From NCBI GenBank assembly GCA_018398765.1, contig JAHBMJ010001361.1:35791-99790 (forward strand): DNA of 64,000 nt, in the 5' to 3' direction. This document shows, piece by piece, positions 2,435-47,302 of this stretch (the stretch's first letter is position 1; every line of letters starts with the position of its first letter). A program made the position numbers and the translations under genes. The notes under the pieces are model-generated. The model saw only the letters and a list, made by a program, of their open reading frames with translations, did not search any database and was not told the origin of the DNA. The stretch is from Chromera velia (lineage: Eukaryota > Sar > Chromeraceae).

Positions 2435-5400
2435 ATGAGCATAAAGCTCCGCCTTCCTTCTCTACAAGAATCCTCAGGAAGCGCAGGTGGACTGACTGAA
2501 GAGGAGGAGGCCGAACAGCAGTGTCTCAAATGGACTTCTCTTCTAATTCTGGTTGCGCAAAACTCAGCACTGACCATCGTTCTATGCCTGAGTCGGCAAA
2601 AAGGGGCCAAACTGTATTTTGTCTCCACTGCGGTTACTCTTGGGGAGTTGTTTAAGCTGGTTGTCTCTCTCGTGGTGTACGTCTTGCAGGTGAGTGAGCG
2701 AGAGTGTGAGTAAGGGCAACGGGGATATTGACCACAGCAGCAAGATGCTCCCTGAAGTTCGTGTCCAGTCCATTCTGGAGAATTTTTGTCTGCATGACTG
2801 TGTGAATCTAGTCTCTGTGGCTGCCTTCTTCCTAGGTCATGCTGAGGATCCGTCACCAGAGTTACGAATCAGAATTGCCCCCCCACTTGACCCCCTCCCC
2901 GCCTCTCTGTCCGTCTGGGTGAATGCGCGCGCAAGTCGCATCCTTCTTGCCCTGCTTTATCACTTTCGGCTTCTGCCAGGGTGGATGCTTCCTGTGCCCC
3001 TTTGTTTGCACTTCTCACTTCTCTGTGTGCCTTCTTCTGTCTGTGTGTGAGAGCAGGAGAGGAAAAGCAGAGGCGAGTTGTTCAGTTGGACTCGGATCGT
3101 CACAACAATTTTCAACAAATCCATCTTGCTGCTCTTCGTACCGGCAGTCGCGTACACTATACAAAATAATCTTCAGGTCAGTGCAAAAAGTGTGAACGAA
3201 TTGTGCAAACATCAGAAAAAACGTTCTTGAATGATAAATCCATTCGATGAAATCAACCGGAAAACAAAAAAACTTCAGGTCACTGCAAGCCAATCAAAAA
3301 TGGTTTTGAGGTGACCGCGTCAGATAGGCTCGGTTGAGTGTTCCGCGGGAAGACAGCCAGACCGGTAGTCGGGGGTGCTCTTGACTCTACAGAGAGAGTG
3401 CATCGACGCATGTACCGCCAGGCTCAAAGGTGAATCGGACAGGCAAATACATAGATGGATGGATAAAGAGGCCGCCAGTCAGTCAGACAGACAAACAATT
3501 GGACAGACACTCATACAAACCCTCAGACAGAGCGACCCAGCTAGGCCTTCCGGATTTGTTCCCGCCTTCCTTGAGGGAGTGTGGTGGGATCTCTGTTGTT
3601 GATCAACCATTGAACCGAAACAAATCAGGAGTGTGTGCTTAATTGCGCCTGGGTGGCTTTGCACTCGTTCTCATTCATTAGTCAGCAGATGCACGCGCTC
3701 GATCCATGACGACTTTCCTCGTGGTCCACCGAGGCAATTAAGTGATCTTTTGTTTGTTTCTTTTCTGTCCGCCATCAGGAACCTGATTATCAATGCAACA
3801 ATTCACTTTTTTCATCAATGCATTCATCACCCAGCTGGCTGCCTTCTTCCATGTCTGCTGCATGTATGTGTGTGCAGTATGTTGCTGCAACCCACCTGGA
3901 TGCGGCGACATTCCAGATAACATACCAAATGAAGATCCTCACGACTGCTCTCTGCTCTGTACTCCTGTTGGGGCGGCGCCTCACTTGGATTCAGTGGTTC
4001 TCGCTGTTCCTTCTGACTCTGGGAGTGGCGGCGGTGCAAATGCCGACGGGGTCTCCGGCGCCTTCGTCCAGCTCGATCGTCGAAAATTCAAATGAAAGCA
4101 ATGACAGGAGACACAGCTCACCCCTGCAACCGAGAGCGCCAAGCGCTGGTGGGAGGGGGGGAGATCGCGGAGAGGCTGAGGAATTTGATGGAGACGGGGA
4201 GACGGCAACTGTTGCGTCGGTTTTGGAGGTGTTCGATGAGTTCGTCCCTAGTGAATTCGTCGGACTGGCATCCGTTACCGGTCTGTCAATGCCCGCCTTG
4301 CTTGCTTGCTGTTTGTTTGTTGATTTTTTCGTCTATACATCTTCGCCTGTTTGTCTCGATCTCTCTCTGTCAGTCTGTGTCTTCTGTCCGTGTGGCTGGC
4401 TGGCTGGCTGTTTTCCGCTTCTCGGCGTGTTAGCTTGTAGAACTCTCTCGGCATGTCAGCCTGCATTTCTTTGCGCATGCTTGTCTTGTTGCGTGCCCCT
4501 CCGCTTTCATCTCTTTCAGGTTACATTTCATTTCGTTGAGTTTCGTTTCGTGTCTGATTGCTCGCCTAATAATTTCTTTTTTGCGTTGCCCAAACTACGG
4601 CTCGATCTGCATGTGGGCATGTGTGTTTGTATATGTGTATGCAGGGGCGTGTCTGCTGTCGGGATTTGCTGGGGTCTGGTTGGAGAAGGTGCTGAAGCAG
4701 TCCCGCACTGCTTTGTGGGCCCGCAATGTCCAGATGGCTTTGATATCTCTTCCCCCCGCGGTTGTGTTCGGAAACATTCTGAGTGACGGAATGGGAATCC
4801 TGGACAAGGGCTTTTTTTTTGGGTACAACTCCATGACATGGTTTGCCGTATTCTTTCAGGTTGGTCGGTTCTTGTTCATGTTTTTTGTTTTCTTCGGTCG
4901 ACAAACAGGCAGGCAGGAAAATGAGAAGGAAGGAAGGAGAGTGAGTTTCTTGCCAGTCAATAGTTTTTCTGGTGCTCGTGTAAGAGGCCGGCACATGCAG
5001 TCTCTGCTGGGTCGATCGTCTTACTTCGCGTACCGTTATTCCCATGCTGCATAGGGAGGGTCTGCATGGCTGCTCTTCCGTGCAGTCGTCAGCGTCGAAG
5101 TCAACAGCACAGCAATGGTCATGTGTTGATAGAAAACCACTCTGAAGTGCTCTTTCGCTTTCACGTCAATCCCATCCTCACTGCAATTGATCGATCGGCA
5201 ATGCTCTCAAAAACTCTCTTTTCGGCCCGGGAAACTCTCTTAAAAATCGGAGATCGACGTGCGCTAATGGAGACAGAGGTGGCTAGTGGGTTGGATGCCG
5301 ATGCATTCATTCTTCCTTCAATGTTCTCTCTGGCTGGTCATTGTCTGTTCATGCATCAATCATGTCTCCATGACTGCAGGCAAGTGGCGGGCTCATCGTG

Positions 5401-13789: not shown

Positions 13790-16700
13790 CGCGCGCCTCC
13801 CCCCCCGTTCCGCCACTGTCTTTTCTCTATCGCTGTAGGCTTTGTGTGTAAAGAAAAGCCGCAGGTGATGTAGGGCATCTAGAATAAATCAGTCAAAGAG
13901 TTTAGAAGTTATGCCTACACGTTGGAATACCATCTAGAATACCATGCATTCAATTAAGTCAGAAGAATACAGAGTCTACGTAACAACCCTTGCACACGCA
14001 TCCATTCATGAATTAGGAGAGGAGAAGCAGTATGTACCACTCCATATAAAAATGATCTATGCAAGAAAGAAAAAGACCATTGATACACCAGCAGCTCAAC
14101 AAACAAACACATCAGCGAATGCACCACAACCGACGCAGGGGCATTCGTCGAGAGTAACGTACGAGTAACATGCCCTAAAATTAAACCGCTACGCCCACCC
14201 CCACTTGTGATGCAAGAAGAACCGTGAGCAAACCTACTCCTCTCAAGGGACAAGGATAACTTGCAAAAAATCGTGCCATCCCTTATACCTGAGAGACATT
14301 GAGCCATCGGCCCACGATTTGGGTTAGCAGACTCAAAAAGTACGATCTCATGTGCACCTGGCAGGCAGAATAATGACAAACCGAGCACTGTGCACCCTTC
14401 TTGTCTCTCCAGCACACAGCTGTAATGGTAGAAGTCCTGTCTCTGCAAGGATGCCATAAAGGGGTCATCATTCAAGAAAGAAGAGGACCGAGACCGGGCC
14501 AAAACCGACCTGTCTTCCATATACCGAGCCATGAACCACTTATCACCCTTCTATCCAGAAATGCCAGCATCCACAGCCCTTCTTCTCTCTTTCTATACAG
14601 CATAAAAACGAGCCCCTCCAGGAGAACAAGGGCTCCCTTAAGGGAAGCCTTCCCGCTGCCCAACCCGCTTCCCCAACACAATAATCATATTGGAAGCAAA
14701 GTTTACCGAGATAATCTGGGGTAGCAAGTCGAGCGGACATACAAGAGAAGAAGGGTGGTTCGAATGTGACGACAAGAAAGCAACCGGACGTCTCTATTTC
14801 GAGCACGATAACCATGACTCCCCCCCTGCTAGGCCCGTAACCCGCAAACAAACAGGCCTTTCCTTCCTCAAAACAACAAAACGATTTCTCCCCTGACTCT
14901 TCACAAGCGAAATGAATTCAAACAAAGAAGACAGAAAGTCAGACCGAGAGAGAGAAGGGAAATATGCTTTAATATCATCCACCATAATAGATACTCTTCC
15001 TGCAGGCCAGCGGGGAGAAAGTCGAACGACCGACGCCCGGTCTACACTCCTGCCGAAAGACCTATTGAATTCACTCACCAACTCCTGAAAAGCAAAAACT
15101 GACGGAGGGTCAGCGTGCGGTGAGAAAACATGCAACAATCCATTCAAGGCCTTATACAAAAAAGAAAAAGGACCCCACCATGAATGCTTTGCATAAGAGA
15201 CCAACGCACGGAACTTCAAGGAGGCCCAAGATGCAGGGACTTCACCGCCCTTTCCCCATGACTTCCTCTTCGGCCACAAGATACCTGTACCAAATGAATG
15301 ACCCTTCTCCAAGATACCCATAAACTGTTTAAGAAACAGGTTCATCTCTGGAGATCGACTGGATTCATCAAACAGCAGTGCCTCCCTCAACCTCACGTCT
15401 TGAGGTGACAGATGAATATATGCAGAATCGGAGAAGAAAACCCGACACAAGCAAACAATATATATCCGTCTGCACATGAAAGCGAGATCTCCCCGAGACT
15501 TATCAACCGGCGTGATTGCCAGCCTGCTCTTCAACTCCTTCACAAACCCTCCCCCCCTATTGGGCATACACGGTCCCTCCCTAGTTGTCTCCAGCAACTT
15601 CATCCATTCATCAGACAACGACATCTATTCAAATGGAAGCACACAAACGCCAGAGACCCTTCTCCCCCCCATCACCCCCAACCCGCATCCCCTACCCAAC
15701 ATACGAGACAAAAAAGATAAGACAGAGCTCATTCCCTTGCAAGCGACCGACCAGGCCGCAAGCGAGGGCCAAAACTTTGATCGCGAAGAGAAATTTGAGG
15801 GGAGAGAGAACCTCCACTGCAACCCGGGAGACAGAGACAGTAGGCAGCAGACATGACCTTGCACAGTAGCGAGGTCCATAGAAGAAGACAAATGCTCACA
15901 CGGGCATGGCCCATCGCATTTGACACTCAAGCCCCCCGTTTCCTCACTCCCCCCTTCCTCAACCCCCTCACTCCCACAGACATCATATGAATTGTTCAAC
16001 ACCTGCTGTAAACTCAGCAACTTCGAGGGCAGCAAACAGAAGCGTACCGTGCCCCTCAAACCAGACGCACGGACCCATCTCGAAAAGACAGAGGCGTAGA
16101 AAGAAGTGAAAGGATGAAAATCAGCAAGAGGCAAACGAACAGAAAAAAGCAAACTCTTTCCGAAGTCCTTCACTGACCAACCATGAAGCTCACACAATCT
16201 ACGTACATTGAAGTCGAAAGTCGCCCTGCCGCCCTGTTTTACTCCAGACCTTAGAAAAAGACGGCAGCACGCATGCAGATGATCTTTCTCAACCATCATT
16301 CTTCTCAACTCACCATCAGTGCGCCGTTTCTTTGAGAGGAATACCAGCAGCAGAGAATGGTATACGTATGAGCCTAAGCCCCCCCTCCCCCCCTTCCCCC
16401 TCTCTATCTCCTTACCCCTCTTTCCCCCAGACCAACTCACCTGCCCACGGGAACCGGAAACATCAGCAGCCACACAACACCTACTCAGATAGGGGGGAAA
16501 ATTTATATTTCGAACACCTCCTCCGTCTCCCTGCACCGAGTTTCTCACTGACATGAAAGCTCTCAACCGGTCAGTATATGCAGTAACTCCCCCACCCCGC
16601 CTTTTCGCAATCTGACCAGACCTTCGCCTGCCCTGACCCTCACTCGCCTCCCCCCCTTTGTTCCCAGGGCGAAGCACCAGCGACGTCTCCCCTTTCATCT

Positions 16701-18102
16701 TCCTAGTATTCACCCCTGCAGTGTTCCAGGCAGGCATAAAAGATCGTATACACGCCATCTCCACATCCCTCAAATCCTTCTGCGTTCCACTCATTACTGC
16801 AAGAGGAGTAATTATCATGAACAACGCATGCTGAGTCACATCAGATGATAAAACAGAGTAAAAGCGATGAGCATACCCCCTGCTAAAAGCATTAGACCCC
16901 CCTCTCCTACCGGTAAAGTAACGAGATGCCGCGTACAGATGTTACTTGAACCTGCCAACCGCATCGTCCACCGTACTACCAAGATAAAATCCTCTCTTCT
17001 ACGGCGACCATATCATGTATACAACATGCTTATTTCATAGGTTGGCCCGACCATCAAAAGATTTACAACCTCGTCTGACTTCCCTCAAAAACTTTGAGAA
17101 ACTCGACTCAGACAACTCTAAAAAACTCCCAGCAACCATGCAATGCAGGTTTGTCACCCTCTCTAACATTTGTGTGCTGCACCTCCTCCCCAGCATAGAC
17201 CAAGCACAAGAATGAGAACATTCACTCACATCCGGAGATGCAGGAGAGAACTGAAGTGAGTAAGAAGGGGGCTGCGATGAGTGTATGTGCAACGTAGTCG
17301 AAAGGGGGCAAGAACATGAACTTACTTCAGCACCGCAGACTGGGCAAACTTGTTTTGCATGCGCAGACACAGACGAAAGGAACATCCTCATTCCCATCAA
17401 CTGAAGCATCATCTTGTCCAATTCCTTGCCGCACTCCTGGAAGACTTTCTCATGACCGAACCCCCTCACTCCCTTATCACAATCCATCCTCATCTACACT
17501 GCCCTCATCTGATCTTCCAACCGATCAACGAAAACAGAAAACTGAGATGAACATAATGGTATGTCTAGACTTACTTCATTTAAAGTCTCCGTCCTGCCTG
17601 ATCCCCCTGGTCCTAGTCAACCCGAGTCCCCTCCTACTGGGAATGTGGCCCCATCCTCCACCATCACCAGTGCAAGCGCAAAGACCAGCGCCTCTGTATC
17701 AGCGTCGGGAGGGACTGCCGACACCATACATTCCCTCAGGAACTCCGCCGCATCCCTTTGCAAGACTGCACTGTCAATCCCCTCAACAGCCGTCCCGATC
17801 ATCTCAGCCCTGTCGAGTACCATCCTCATCCTTTCCCCATTGAAGACCGGCGCTGACCTCACCAGGGCGTCGAAGGTGATCATGGCAGCTGCTGCTGCCT
17901 AGCGCGGAGGCTTCATCCCAATCTGCTTGAGTGTATTGGACTCTTCCCTCTCCATCCTTACTGCTACTGCCCTGAGCCCCCCCACAAGGGAGCGTCCCGG
18001 GGGTACATCGAAGAGCGCATCCGCTCTCTCCTCAGTCTCCCCCCCCATTTCACCTCTAGCACGAGTGCGTTTCGCAGCCTCAGACAAGCAATTCCAAGAC
18101 AC
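13790..18102 (-). mobile_element. Decayed Penelope-like retroelement with N-terminal GIY-YIG nuclease (copy A)
   Basis: Read on the minus strand, one frame runs from 17493 to 13954 (about 1180 codons) with eight stop codons but no frameshift. In order it shows a zinc-binding stretch CPVCGAEVSSCSC; a GIY-YIG nuclease (VVYMIW at about 17025-17008, FYLGST at about 16986, ending DVEMACIRSFMPAWN); a second Cys-rich stretch CDGPCPCEH; and a reverse transcriptase with PVDKSRGDLAF, motif A MVDDIKAYFPSL (about 14980), motif B GFP-stop-GSPCSP (about 14640) and motif C RYMED (14523-14512). Further open frames upstream (17883-17617 and 18102-17899) may belong to its 5' part. An N-terminal GIY-YIG domain is known from some Penelope-like clades. 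Stops lie at 17037, 17001, 16944, 15627, 14796, 14640, 14595 and 14553. Confidence 0.75.
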
Positions 18103-41045: not shown

Positions 41046-42055
41046 TGATTGATTGATTGATTGATTGATGCCAAACCCTAGGTGGAGTTAGAACTCCCGG
41101 GCGGCGCATACATGCATGGGTCTGTTCAATTATGCCAGCTGCAAGCTAAGTGGACGACAGTTATTCGAACTTAATCTAATTAATCATTTACTATAATATG
41201 GCAAGAAATCATAAAGAGGAGAGAGGGTTGAGAGCGCAAGAGCAATGTGATGAACTTGCGAACCCCCAGATCAGAAAAAGAGGCAGATGTAAAGGGTGAG
41301 TCACAACGAGTGAAGCGGTCTGATTGAATTAATGCCAACCACTACAAAAAGCCTTGTTCGGCAGTCCATCAGGAGCAAACAGAGAGCCGATGAATAAAAT
41401 CATCTACACACCGGCAGCAGGCTTCATAGGTGTACAGCTTTCTATCAGAGCAACCAACAGGCAGCCCACCTTGCCCGCCCATCGGGTTATATATCAGCAT
41501 GCGCAAAAAAGAAAAGATCGAGCCTCCCGTAACCGACAAGGCAGAACAGGGAAGGGTAGAGACAGAAGGAACACCGGAGGATGACTTGCTATACAGGAGG
41601 AAGACAAACATATGGCGGGAGGATGGGAAGTCGCGCTGCAAAGGGGTGAGTCTAGCAAGGAGGGGAAAGTGAGAGGAAGATCGCCCATCATCCTTAGAAG
41701 CTTTCATGCATTCCTTTGCAACTGTCTGTCTCACCTTGCCCTTGAAGAAAAGTGAGCCAGTGCCTTATGCCCTACAACCATTCTGCCCGTGTTGGGAAGA
41801 CAAATCGGGCTTGACCCTCAGCGAGCGGACAGAAATCAAATCAGCCCAACAAAACAGCCTGTCTATAGATCTTGTGAATTGTTGGCAGCAGTTATTCTTC
41901 CAGGCACGCAACATGGCTGCAGGAATAGTGTGTGTTGTGATAGAAAGAGAGTGCTACCAGTCAGCCACGCGGGAGCAGAGAAGGGCTTTACAAGGAAGAA
42001 GACCAAGGATGCAAAGAGAGGGCAGGTGGAGGCTGCGAGCAGACAAATGACCACA

Positions 42056-43517
42056 CTAACGGGCAAACCAAAGCTGCAAAGCATCAAGAGCAAGCAGGTC
42101 TGCATCCCGCACTAGCAGACATTCAAGGCAGTAGAGCGCTATGGGGGTCCAGCAGGCTCTAAAGATTGTTACCTGCGCATCAATGCTGAGCAGGCCCATG
42201 TTCGCAATCAACCCGATTACTCCTTCCAGAGCCCGCGAAGCAGAAGCAATACGGGACTCAATTGTCTTGTTCAAGCACCCCCCTTCAAAGAAAACACACC
42301 CCAGATATTTGTATTGGGATGTTCATTCAACTTCCCTCCCACCATACATGACTCTACCTGCAGACTGCCCCAGAGCCAAGGCAGACAGACGCAAGATTTT
42401 CATTTTCTTTAAGTTCACAGTCAATCCCCATTCTTTGCAATACCCTTCTAAGGCTGAGAACTTCTTTTGCAAATCTGAGACGGAATGAGCAAGGAAACAG
42501 AGATCATCCACATGATACCCCAGACTGCCTAAGATGCAGTTGTTAAGGAGGACAGGTTCGGGCTCTCTCTCAGGCTCCTCGACGCTGCCCTCCCCCATTC
42601 TGCTGTCTGACCATCCTGCTCCCTCTGCTTCTCTGTCTACGGCCCCCTCGTTCTTACTAACTGAACACATACGGGGAAGGTCATTAATATAGATAAGAAA
42701 GAGAATGGGAGAGAGAGCATCACCTTACTTTACTCCAGCGTCCTCCCAAAAACGCAAAGAGTCCCCGTCTACCTTTCCCCAGACCTCCCTGTACATTTCA
42801 TATATCATACACACATCTGCCTTACACATCTCTTCTCGGTTTCTAAATTAGCTTACCTCTCGGCACAGTGTCGAAAGCTTTGGAGAAGTCAACAAAGCCT
42901 GCCAGCAGAGCTTTCTTTTTCTTTTTAGAGGAAAGAATGGCAGAGACAAGCGCACCTACCCCTTTCCTCGTACCCACCCCTTGTCTGAAACCTAACTGCC
43001 TGACGTCAAGCTCAACTTGAGAGCGCACACGGCCATCCATCAGCAAACCAAAAAGTTTTGCGAAAGGGTTAACAACGTGAATAGGCCTCCATTCATTGGG
43101 AGAGGGAGAGGCAGGGCCTTTAGAGACAGGGCAGATACGCAGCACATTCCAGGAGGGAGGCCAGCAAGCAAAGATATGCATACAATTAAATAAAACAAAA
43201 AGTAAAAAACGAGAGAGCGCCGAGTGCGCAAAACAAAGGTCAAGCTGAGCGGGGGAGATTCTTTTAAGACCGGAGGCTTTCTTTCTATTCATTTTCTTTA
43301 GAGCAGAGGAGATTTGATGGAAAGAGAAGGGCAAAATAGAAGGGTGGAAAGGAGGAGGGGCAGGTGGGAGGGCGGAACGGAGAGGCTCTTCATTCTTGTC
43401 TTCAAACACCCCCGCCCAATGATTCAAGAACTCACCGTAACGTGGAGAAGGACGGGAAGCTCCCCCAGCTGAGGCAGCTTTTTTCTTTTTCCTCCAGATA
43501 GCAAGTAGGTCTAGCAA
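42056..43517 (-). pseudogene. LINE reverse transcriptase domain (frameshifted)
   Basis: 43517-42843 shows the usual LINE order: MNRKKASGLKRISPAQL, ICPVSKG, NEWRPIHVVNPFAKLFG, LGFRQGVGTRKG and motif A FVDFSKAFDTVPRGKL. A frameshift near 42.8 kb leads to the motif C region GYHVDDLCFLAHSVSDLQKK (42520-42461) followed by WGLTVNLKKMKIL. The thumb-like part (SRALEGVIGLIANMGLLSID) ends at 42056. A further frame change near 43.45 kb separates it from the endonuclease. Confidence 0.85.
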
Positions 43518-45882
43518 GCGGGTCTTTTAACAACTCTTCTTGTACCTTCTGGGCTTGTGCTCTCTCCCATGCAACTCTCTTTCTTTTGAACAGAGTACGA
43601 CGGACCCGGAGAAGCCTCTGCAGTCTATCGAACTCTATTCCCCTTCCATTCCCATCTCTCACTAGCTTCCATCTCTCGTCTGCTTCTCTAACCTCTTTCT
43701 GTAAAGCTTTACATTCTGAATCAAACCATGCCTCTCTCTTTGATCGTCTACCTTCTGGGCCAGGCCCTTTGTCCCCTGTCTGCTTGATCGGCCCTACCAG
43801 CATATGCCACCATTCCTCAACTAACCTGTGCAGATACGCACGATCGTCACCGCCCTCTGAAGTCAGCCCTGGTTGGGGATGCGGGGACACTGGAGGAGGC
43901 GGAGGAGCAGGCGGCTCCTTGAATGGTTCGATTTGCTCATGATAGGCCCAGAAGCCAGGCCATTGATCCTCAGCAAACGATCTTACCGCTGCTGCAAGCG
44001 GCGCGATTTCTTCATCAGAGACCGGGGCTATGCGGTTTGAACAGAAAAGGGGAGGACAATCAGAAAGGTTTTGGTGGGGTAGGAGAGCATCTTCAAATTC
44101 GGGTTCGGCCAAGGGAGGGGAGAAGGAGAAGGAAACGGTCGTACGGTCGGGGGAGGCAATACCATCAAAGTCAACCTCCCAATCAGAAACCCTCTGTATG
44201 GTAGATGGATCAGTAAGTACATAATCAATGAGGGAAGTAGGCGTAGACATACTGCTCTGTCTGGAATAGTGGGTGCACTCACCAGGAAAAACAAAGGATA
44301 ATTCTCCCCCTGCTTCTCCCATCAGTCCGTTCAAAGGAACAAGATTCGTATCACTACGAATCTGAATAAAGTCCCTCCCACTGCGGTCAACGTCTTTGCT
44401 GCACTGAGACGTGCGGACAAACGAGGGTCTGTCAGGCTCCTCCGAGCCCTCATCATTTTCTCCCCTCCCATCAACCCCCCCGGAATCCCTCGGCGGGAGG
44501 AAGAGATCTGCACGGGACCACAAAAGATTTTTGGGGACAAGGCTGCCTGAGTGCGCATTGAAATCCCCCATCACCACCTTGTCTGCCTCAAGAGGGACCC
44601 CCCCAAATACATCTTTCAAGAGGTCAGGGACCCTACTGTCCCTGTAAACGGACCAGGACCCGGGAAGGTAAAGACCGAATACATGCACCCTGCGCCCACC
44701 CACAGTAATCTTCACTTCAACTAGACTCGGGCCCACAAGGGAGATTTCGGGTTTCAGCTCGCTCCACCGTTCCTCTTTTACAAGCATACAAACACCCCCA
44801 CTTCTGCCGTCCCTATCATGGGCTGCTTTGCACGTACCTAGTTACTGCCGGTACCACTCATGGTGGCTGAAGTTTTTGCCTTTCCACCCCCCATAAGAGA
44901 TATCCCTCGTTACGTCCATTACTTCTGTGAAGATGGCTAGGTCGGGATCTTTCTCGGCCAGTCAACGGGAAAGGGAGCCGTTGTCTTCTTTACTTCTCAT
45001 CCCATTCACATTCAACAACGAAAAACGGACCGAGGCATCCCTCACTCTAGCCGCGGCTGCCATCTCTTTCTCTTTCTCTTTCCGCCACTCTTTCCAAAAC
45101 TCCCTTCGCAGCTCTTCACAGTGATTCAGGTTTGCTGCCGGCTCCCACGTGTGAGAGAAATTCCCGCCCCAGTCAACCAGGTATTCCTTTTCCCCCCCTT
45201 CCCCATTTATACGAGTACGAAGCACCCGCACGATCTCCCACTCCGGCTCTGGGCTGGCAGGCTCCCCCGCTTCACCCGGCTACTGTGACGTGCCATGCTT
45301 ACGGTTGCCTCCCCCGCGCTTTTTCCCTTTCCCCCTACGACGCTTCCTAACCGACCCCTCCTTCGAAACAAAAAACATATCAGATACAAAAGACAGAACA
45401 GACAAGCCCTCACTGGAAGGAGAAGGTGCCTGACTGCAAAGGGAAGGCAAACATGAAAGAGAATCAACATCAGGGGCATGAAGGGACGGAGAAGAATTAA
45501 ATAGAGGAGAAGAACAGTCTGACTTGCCTGCAAGGGCATCAAGCTTGCCGCCGCTCACAGATCCTTCATCCGTTGCGCACTCCGACAGAACATCAAAACG
45601 ATTGCCATGAAAGACAGAGGGAGGGGGAGAAACAGGGGCCAAGTGCCCTTTTCTACGTAGATTGAATTTCACATCACACCATTTCAATGAATCAAAAAAG
45701 ATATCGCAAGGTGCAGTGCCCGGGGGAGAACACAACTCATTGACAGAGACAGAAGACAACCAGGCACGCAAATCACACATCTCCTTTCTGAGAGCCTCCC
45801 TCTTTTCCAGGAGACCTAACGATTTCCTTTTCAGCCATGGGAGTCCAGTCGGTTTGGAGGGGGAAGGAGGACTCCCAACCAT
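43432..45882 (-). pseudogene. LINE ORF2 N-terminal part: chromodomain fused to EEP endonuclease
   Basis: One frame with three stops (TAG 45282, TGA 44964, TAA 44844). After a Ser-rich lead comes a chromodomain at about 45250-45090: EWEIVRVLRTRI, EYLVDWGGNFSHTWEPAANL, CEELRREFW. These correspond to the family's EYLVKWKGY...TWEP..NL core. Directly after, without a stop between, begins the endonuclease: RFSLLNVNGMRSK, DPDLAIFTEVM, VMGDFNAHSG, SLIDYVLTD and SPDRTTVSF. The last should be an S-D-H motif and has Arg for His. The chromodomain presumably guided the element to modified histones; that is inference from chromoviruses. Confidence 0.8.
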
Positions 45883-46094
45883 ACGCCCTTCCCCCCAACT
45901 CTTCCCGTCTCCATCCGAAACTAATGACTGCAGCCGGAGGCAGCACCCCCGTCTCCGTTTTCCAACTCGGGTCTCACTTGCACCGGGGTCTTGAAAACCA
46001 TACCACCCTCATAAGACGGCTGCGGGAGCTGTTTGGCTTGCTGTTGTTGCTGTTGGGTGTGTATTGCAAAGTTTAACGCAGCAGCGCTCGAGGT

Positions 46095-47026
46095 TTACGG
46101 CACCGCGGCTGCCACCGCATTCTGCTGCGCGACCGCGGCTGCCAGTGGCGAGCCCATCATATGAGAGTCGGCGGCCGAATTTTGTTGGGGCGGCATAGGG
46201 GGGAATAGGTGCTGCTGCAGTGGTGGTGCAGGTGCTCTAGGAATCGGTTGAGCGGACTCACTCACCCCTTCCTTCAGCAGAAAGGTCTGAGCCCTCTCTT
46301 TGTCCTTAGTGGATGCCCCAGCATCGCCAAGTGTGCTTTGTGCCCAAAAAATTCTGCTGGCTTTCTCTTCTTCCTCCGTCTTCCTAAGCACACACTTCAC
46401 AGATCCGGTAGGAGCAAGGAAGAGGACGTTGTACTGCACAGGCCTTGAACAGATCGGGAGTGATCGGGAGCGCAGGCCTTGAACAGACCGTCAAACTCTT
46501 CCACATCTTTTTTGCGTTTGAATTCGACAGTGAGTTTGGAGACCCACTTGTAGTTCTTGCTGTATAAGATGGATTTCGCAGCCTCATACAGCCGGGAAGA
46601 ACGGGAGATCACTTCATCTGTCTAGCACACTTGGCCATTGAGAGAGAAAAAAAAGGTGAGCAAGTCTCTGAGGAAGGATTGGAATTGCTGCCACTTCCTT
46701 GCCTCATTGAGAGAGAGGCCCAGCACCACATGCGAGCGAGGGACGGGGTCTTTCTCCTCATCGGAGGGCTGAAAACTCAGCACGGTTGATTCGATCTTCT
46801 CGATTAACTTCTCACATTTCTTAACCCTTCTCTCATTCTGATCAATCTGGTTGTCAAGGTTGTCAATCTTTTTTGCAACGATGTCAAATCTGCCGTCGAA
46901 GTACTCCCTCTGAGAAGCTGTCTGTTGGTCAAACAGTGCTTTTATTTTAGGAAGGGTGGCCCCCCCGCTGCCAGAGGGGAGATCGGAGCCACTAAGAGGG
47001 CCAGCCGATATTCCACAGGACATCAT
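46095..47026 (-). pseudogene. LINE ORF1-like protein with coiled coil
   Basis: 47026-46622 contains a heptad-like stretch, IVAKKIDNLDNQIDQNERRV and KKCEKLIEKIES, followed by SHVVLGLSLNEARKWQQFQS. After an in-frame stop the frame continues with [20 protein letters not shown], and after a frame change with a Pro/Ala/Gln-rich end (to 46095). Coiled coil plus a small globular part resembles L1-type ORF1 RNA-binding proteins; no exact family is claimed. Confidence 0.6.
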
Positions 47027-47302
47027 AATGGCGTTTCAGCAACAAGGAGGGAAAGATACACTCGGTGGAGACGGCTGTTGTTTTTTGGTGAGAACTCCCT
47101 CGTTTTAAGGAGATTTGACACAAGAGTTTCGAGGCTTACACTCAGTGATACAAAGGAAGTAAAATCGTTGTTTGAAAGTTATATGTTAATTGCCGTTAAG
47201 TATAAATGCATGTAGTCTACCAATAATTGAAATGATGAAACTCTAACTATTATGTATTAATCAAATCTGGAATCAAATCAACCAGTATTTTTGTAGCATT
47301 GT

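Follow-up and report, generated by a model that had tools for sequence, protein, structure and literature searches.

The 64,000-nucleotide stretch of Chromera velia DNA analysed here (the window) carries on its minus strand a decayed LINE copy of about 6.1 kb, belonging to a family that we call A, which blastn places at 41046..47159; its 3′ end is a simple-repeat tail, (ATCA)n on the element strand (41046..41065), and its 5′ end lies at or beyond 47159, the point up to which similarity to another copy extends by blastn. A further copy, L039, aligns by blastn with 41046-47065 of the window at 93% DNA identity, and in it the parts follow in the order ORF1, then an ORF2 made of an N-terminal region, a chromodomain, an EEP endonuclease, a reverse transcriptase and a C-terminal part. 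The sequence-only reading had claimed a LINE over 43432..45882; the LINE is genuine, but that interval is only part of a longer element that runs from 41046 to at least 47159.

ORF1 (46095..47035, minus strand) is broken in the window copy into 46622-47035 and 46095-46490, and is open over 278 aa in L039; it looks coiled-coil-like by eye, and a Pfam scan put no family over the cut-off in it. ORF2, on the same strand, begins with the region ahead of the chromodomain (45280..46008), in which a Pfam scan of the window copy gave no match and whose last codon is an in-frame stop (45280-45282). The chromodomain follows at 45091..45240, where residues 14-63 encoded by the frame 44962-45279 align with PF00385 (E 1.3e-8; 35.0 bits against a cut-off of 25.1). 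Next comes the EEP (APE-type) endonuclease, at 44170..45015 and with two in-frame stops in the window copy; PF03372 scores 37.9 bits over this interval (G000:C1359:79960-80805 before offset conversion) and 25.7 bits, against a cut-off of 24.5, in the frame 43432-44841. The reverse transcriptase (42371..43100) is split over the two frames that follow, with RVT_1 at 24.1 and 30.9 bits (cut-off 29.6), and the C-terminal part of ORF2 (41369..42322) survives as the frames 42056-42322 and 41369-41764, the latter similar by eye to frame 5983-6459 of L039; a Pfam scan of this part gave no match.

The chromodomain, the start and body of the endonuclease and the reverse transcriptase thus all lie on the minus strand in the order that had been claimed for them. 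The description of the stretch as uninterrupted holds for the chromodomain and the motif LLNVNGMRSK, which share one open frame, but not for DPDLAIFTEVM and GDFNAHSG, which lie beyond in-frame stops. With those at 44962-44964 and 44842-44844, the stop that ends the N-terminal region brings the in-frame stops in this stretch to three, and the window copy is therefore dead. Its SDH-type endonuclease motif reads SPDR.

Elsewhere in the window, the plus strand at 3746-4786 holds a partial gene for a nucleotide-sugar transporter (PF04142, 89.7 bits), and the minus strand at 14794-16941 holds two long open frames in which a Pfam scan gave no match; to the eye these loosely resemble a Penelope-like element whose N terminus has a GIY-YIG-like stretch.

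Copies of the element across the genome

We searched the genome (177.8 Mb in 4040 contigs) with the 105-aa piece of the window copy that covers the chromodomain region. Among the 109 rows returned were 38 LINE copies of that region, whole or in part, on 37 contigs, 25 of family A and 13 of a second family, B. The remaining 71 rows, all weaker, comprised 68 presumed chromoviruses, five of which (L007, L008 and L044-L046) were read, together with two host genes and an additional piece of one LINE copy. With the endonuclease as query, at least 36 A loci and at least 14 B loci, grouped by identity, were found.

A chromodomain stands directly upstream of the endonuclease in 35 of the 50 A/B loci found; two are broken inside it and 13 are without it. 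The sequence-only reading had named copies lacking the domain as the observation that would speak for capture in a single copy. We read all 15 loci without a full chromodomain. In every one the similarity to the element stops abruptly with the 5′ side cut off, two breaking off within the chromodomain and the other 13 at its end or past it; in no case is the N-terminal region joined directly to the endonuclease. Two of these incomplete loci, C527 and C1904, have a common flank and look like a single insertion that is represented twice. The chromodomain ahead of a non-LTR endonuclease is accordingly a fixed part of the family.

In a further natural copy, L012, one open frame of 571 aa holds both domains above their Pfam cut-offs: the chromodomain at 28.2 bits (PF00385) and the endonuclease at 36.9 bits (PF03372, over positions 3-167 of the 225 in the profile). 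This frame is preceded by a stop at the position of 45280-45282 in the window copy. The stop also occurs in L013, and the position is read through in L010, L011, L018, L026, L030 and L039 (TSQQ) and in L019 (TLQQ). The 792-aa frame of L039 holds the C-terminal half of the chromodomain (15.1 bits, below the cut-off), the endonuclease (39.8 bits) and the start of the reverse transcriptase, inside which it ends (RVT_1 26.1 bits, under the cut-off of 29.6). The one family B chromodomain scanned scored 17.2 bits with PF00385, under the cut-off of 25.1. At the SDH-type motif, the endonuclease His is retained in 17 of the 19 other A copies matched there; Asp and His are both retained in 11 of these 19 and in all six B copies, the remaining A copies having Asn-His (6/19) or Asp-Tyr (2/19).

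The order of the domains and the ends of the copies fit a LINE. EEP endonuclease and reverse transcriptase follow one another in a single frame in L039 and in a 1658-aa frame of a related family, C (PF03372 40.3 bits, RVT_1 94.6 bits). By blastn, the 5′ ends of nine other copies fall at nine points between 46998 and 47159, of which near-equal ones may be the same; the window copy, L039 and seven of those nine have an ATCA-type tail, one match ending earlier and one giving none. The flanks of the seven copies with both ends read are 59-74% A+T, and no common insertion motif was seen in them by eye. The closest solved reverse transcriptases by sequence are those of R2 (2.3e-10) and L1 (3.2e-4). 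We identify the element as an APE-type LINE whose predicted ORF2 has a chromodomain before the EEP endonuclease, followed by the reverse transcriptase.

A direct repeat of 106 bases, 92% alike, lies beside the ends of one of the seven copies with both ends read, and none was found at the ends of the other six or of the window copy or L039. The LINE copy that it borders (L075 and L084, on G000:C1322) would then have a long target-site duplication.

Putative cage and conservation of the chromodomain

The best PDB matches of the domain are the solved chromodomains of CDYL and CBX5. Predicting the structure of the 105-aa window piece without an alignment gave a poor model (pLDDT 56, pTM 0.33), and the methyl-lysine cage was read from the aligned copies. 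The first cage position is Trp in all 30 copies and the second is Trp in 28, with a stop in the other two. The third (W+3) is Asn, Ala or Thr in all 30 and never aromatic; a Phe stands one residue past it, at W+4, in every copy. The loop of the LINE chromodomain is two residues shorter than in five chromoviruses.

Selection was assessed over 22 A and 7 B copies as means over pairs. Between the families the chromodomain has a pN of 0.219 and a pS of 0.772, and pN is 0.421 in the linker and 0.456 at the start of the endonuclease; synonymous change between A and B is near saturation. Corrected rates were obtainable for just 42 of the 154 pairs and gave a ratio of 0.12. The dN/dS ratio within families exceeds the between-family one (0.32 for A-A and 0.43 for B-B in the chromodomain), which we attribute to the decay of dead copies. 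From the slow amino-acid change between A and B relative to synonymous change, we conclude that selection preserved the chromodomain while both families were active, as judged from these substitution counts.

Differences among the 22 family A copies of the chromodomain region (L009-L030) are themselves skewed: 218 of 265 are C>T or G>A and 14 the reverse, with rates by context of 86/740 at CpG, 51/713 at CpA, 37/956 at CpT and 41/1214 at CpC. This excess looks like deamination of silenced copies.

Source and possible role of the domain

Two apparent host genes have short-loop chromodomains, G000:C1119:14160-14363 (L042; PF00385 28.8 bits) and G000:C884:72938-73120 (L043; 21.5 bits, under the cut-off). 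They share with the LINE domains the loop shorter by two residues and a Trp at the first cage site, in place of the Tyr or Phe of the chromovirus type, and at the shifted third-aromatic position they have Phe or Trp in the same layout. In a tree of 13 chromodomains, the LINE domains together with C1119 and C884 stand opposite five chromovirus-type domains, at a split of 93/96 that is just under the strict mark of the tool and not starred. Used as a query, the C1119 domain returned itself, C884 and 33 LINE copies ahead of any other sequence, the last eight of the 43 rows being one further LINE copy and seven others. The nearest relatives of the LINE chromodomain found in the genome are, by these comparisons, the two apparent host genes and not chromoviruses. 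We favour a host gene as the source, and infer that transfer ran from host to element.

Derivation from a chromovirus integrase of the same genome would have had no lack of donors: chromovirus-type chromodomains are abundant, inspection by eye showed in-frame integrase-like sequence upstream of six of the eight domains L001-L008, L005 having only the C-terminal part of it and L002 only a short stretch, and an integrase-type SH3 domain (PF24626) precedes the chromodomain in L044 and L045 with a score over the cut-off, while L008 scores under it and L046 has none; rve in L045 is under its cut-off. These integrase traces are the basis for treating the comparison set as chromoviral. The pairing of the LINE domains with the host genes in first-site Trp, loop length and tree, and the C1119 search that returns LINE copies first, tell against that origin, which we regard as highly unlikely. 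That the fusion was captured by chance in one dead copy, or is mimicked by nested elements or misassembly, would suit the stops that break the window copy; the 38 copies with a whole or partial domain on 37 contigs in two families, the continuous frame of L012, the amino acids conserved between A and B, and incomplete loci that are cut off 5′ and never skip the domain lead us to reject it as having next to no chance of being right.

The explanation that we consider probable on balance is that a host-derived chromodomain in ORF2 reads a methylated lysine and steers the endonuclease to chosen nucleosomes. An ancestral LINE would have taken the chromodomain from a host gene; within ORF2 it would bind methylated lysine, with histone H3 as the likeliest target, and bring the endonuclease to chosen nucleosomes, where its nick would prime reverse transcription. 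Targeting to methylated histones is the best explanation that we can offer for the conserved fusion, and a host H3 was found whose tail is of the ordinary kind and has K4, K9 and K27. The displacement of the third cage aromatic in the LINE domains speaks against the reading of a histone mark. Further points against this explanation are the score of the family B chromodomain below the Pfam cut-off, the change from Asp to Asn before the endonuclease His in 6 of 19 other A copies, the poor structural model and the tree split just under the strict mark. The domain might instead be functional in ORF2 without being a reader, binding chromatin generally, RNA or another protein as some divergent chromodomains do. 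The non-aromatic third position in all 30 copies and the shortened loop would agree with this, and passages of PMC3350952 extend chromodomain functions to dimerization and DNA or RNA binding and describe group II retrotransposon chromodomains as without cage aromatics and of little-known function. Yet both cage tryptophans are kept, apart from the two copies with a stop at the second, Phe stands one place on throughout, and C1119 and C884 have the same layout with Phe or Trp, so a shifted cage is possible; we judge a function other than mark reading to be rather unlikely.

Co-location with chromoviruses, as a sign of common targeting, gave no signal and agrees with a non-reader: in a crude test, 2 of 50 A/B loci and 2 of 93 C/D loci lay within 20 kb of a chromovirus, which is no excess. 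Chromovirus positions were here the Chromo matches plus weaker matches assumed to be chromoviral, of which L001-L008 and L044-L046 were read, and the lists are lower bounds.

The endonucleases of two further families, C and D, are 32-49% identical to that of the window copy in the loci sampled. All seven family C loci read (L040, L047-L052) have a chromo-like block ending EYWKxRR (EYSKxRR in L052) shortly before the endonuclease, and two D subgroups (one of L054 and L055, the other L056) show a comparable block at a greater distance upstream of it; no such block was seen in the examined frames of the D loci L053 and L057-L060, L053 being masked upstream. Profile alignment to chromodomains, using four of the seven C rows and three D rows with 500 column shuffles, gave D a score of 29.4, above all 500 shuffles (highest 17.0), and C a score of 18.7, above all but three (highest 20.9). 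HMM similarity to the chromodomain is weak for the C block (best 0.068, in the set of seven sequences) and 6.8e-6 for D1, and a Pfam scan of six C/D proteins reported no chromodomain. Upstream of the endonuclease, L040, L055 and L060 have a cysteine-rich block that is CXC-like by eye only; no CXC family was among its Pfam matches, and the pieces of L040 and L060 found nothing in the PDB at E up to 1. The search made of viral contigs gave no relatives. From the chromo-like and CXC-like blocks, we tentatively suggest, as a possibility short of an even chance, that a whole clade of LINEs in this genome has long possessed a modular 'aiming head' of chromodomain type, which has its canonical form in A and B, has diverged in C and in part of D, and is combined with or replaced by a cysteine-rich block elsewhere, such that target choice would have evolved by remodelling of the module before the endonuclease.

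Relation to known retrotransposons

In the portions of the open-access literature that were searched, no LINE with a chromodomain is described, and a case may be catalogued in Repbase or in subscription journals. The passages retrieved place chromodomains in LTR elements or host genes, and the word 'chromodomain' does not occur in the retrieved part of PMC4501334.

CR1-like LINEs with PHD and esterase domains were reportedly described by Kapitonov and Jurka in 2003. They resemble the present element in having a possible histone-reading domain in a LINE, and differ in that the domain is another one and reportedly lies in ORF1, not beside the ORF2 endonuclease.

Celine, a centromeric LINE of poplar, is likewise a LINE with a chromatin-linked insertion bias, but its authors, in the part of PMC11288735 retrieved, found nothing in it that resembles the CRM chromodomain. 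Chronos of oomycetes and CoDi-I of diatoms are, like our element, separate cases of chromodomain capture by a retrotransposon; according to the retrieved passages of PMC5348765, however, both are LTR elements, and the Chronos domain lies beside the integrase, at the C-terminal end.

A parallel in design exists with the chromoviruses (Ty3/gypsy LTR elements such as MAGGY and Skipper), in which, in passages of PMC5006619 and PMC3350952, the protein responsible for opening the target DNA likewise has a chromodomain fused to it. The LINE, in contrast, has no integrase: its domain is N-terminal to an EEP endonuclease in a non-LTR element, with the endonuclease directly after it and, where chromoviruses have the integrase directly before the chromodomain, an ORF2 region without a Pfam match; the nearest kin found of the domain are host genes. 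LTR elements are known in which a fused reader guides insertion by way of chromatin. A reader fused to a LINE endonuclease, if that is what the domain is, would represent a distinct solution suited to target-primed reverse transcription, in which the nick itself chooses the site. Chromodomain and EEP endonuclease together form a small testable unit for how LINEs choose chromatin, in a genome that retains a probable host source of the domain.
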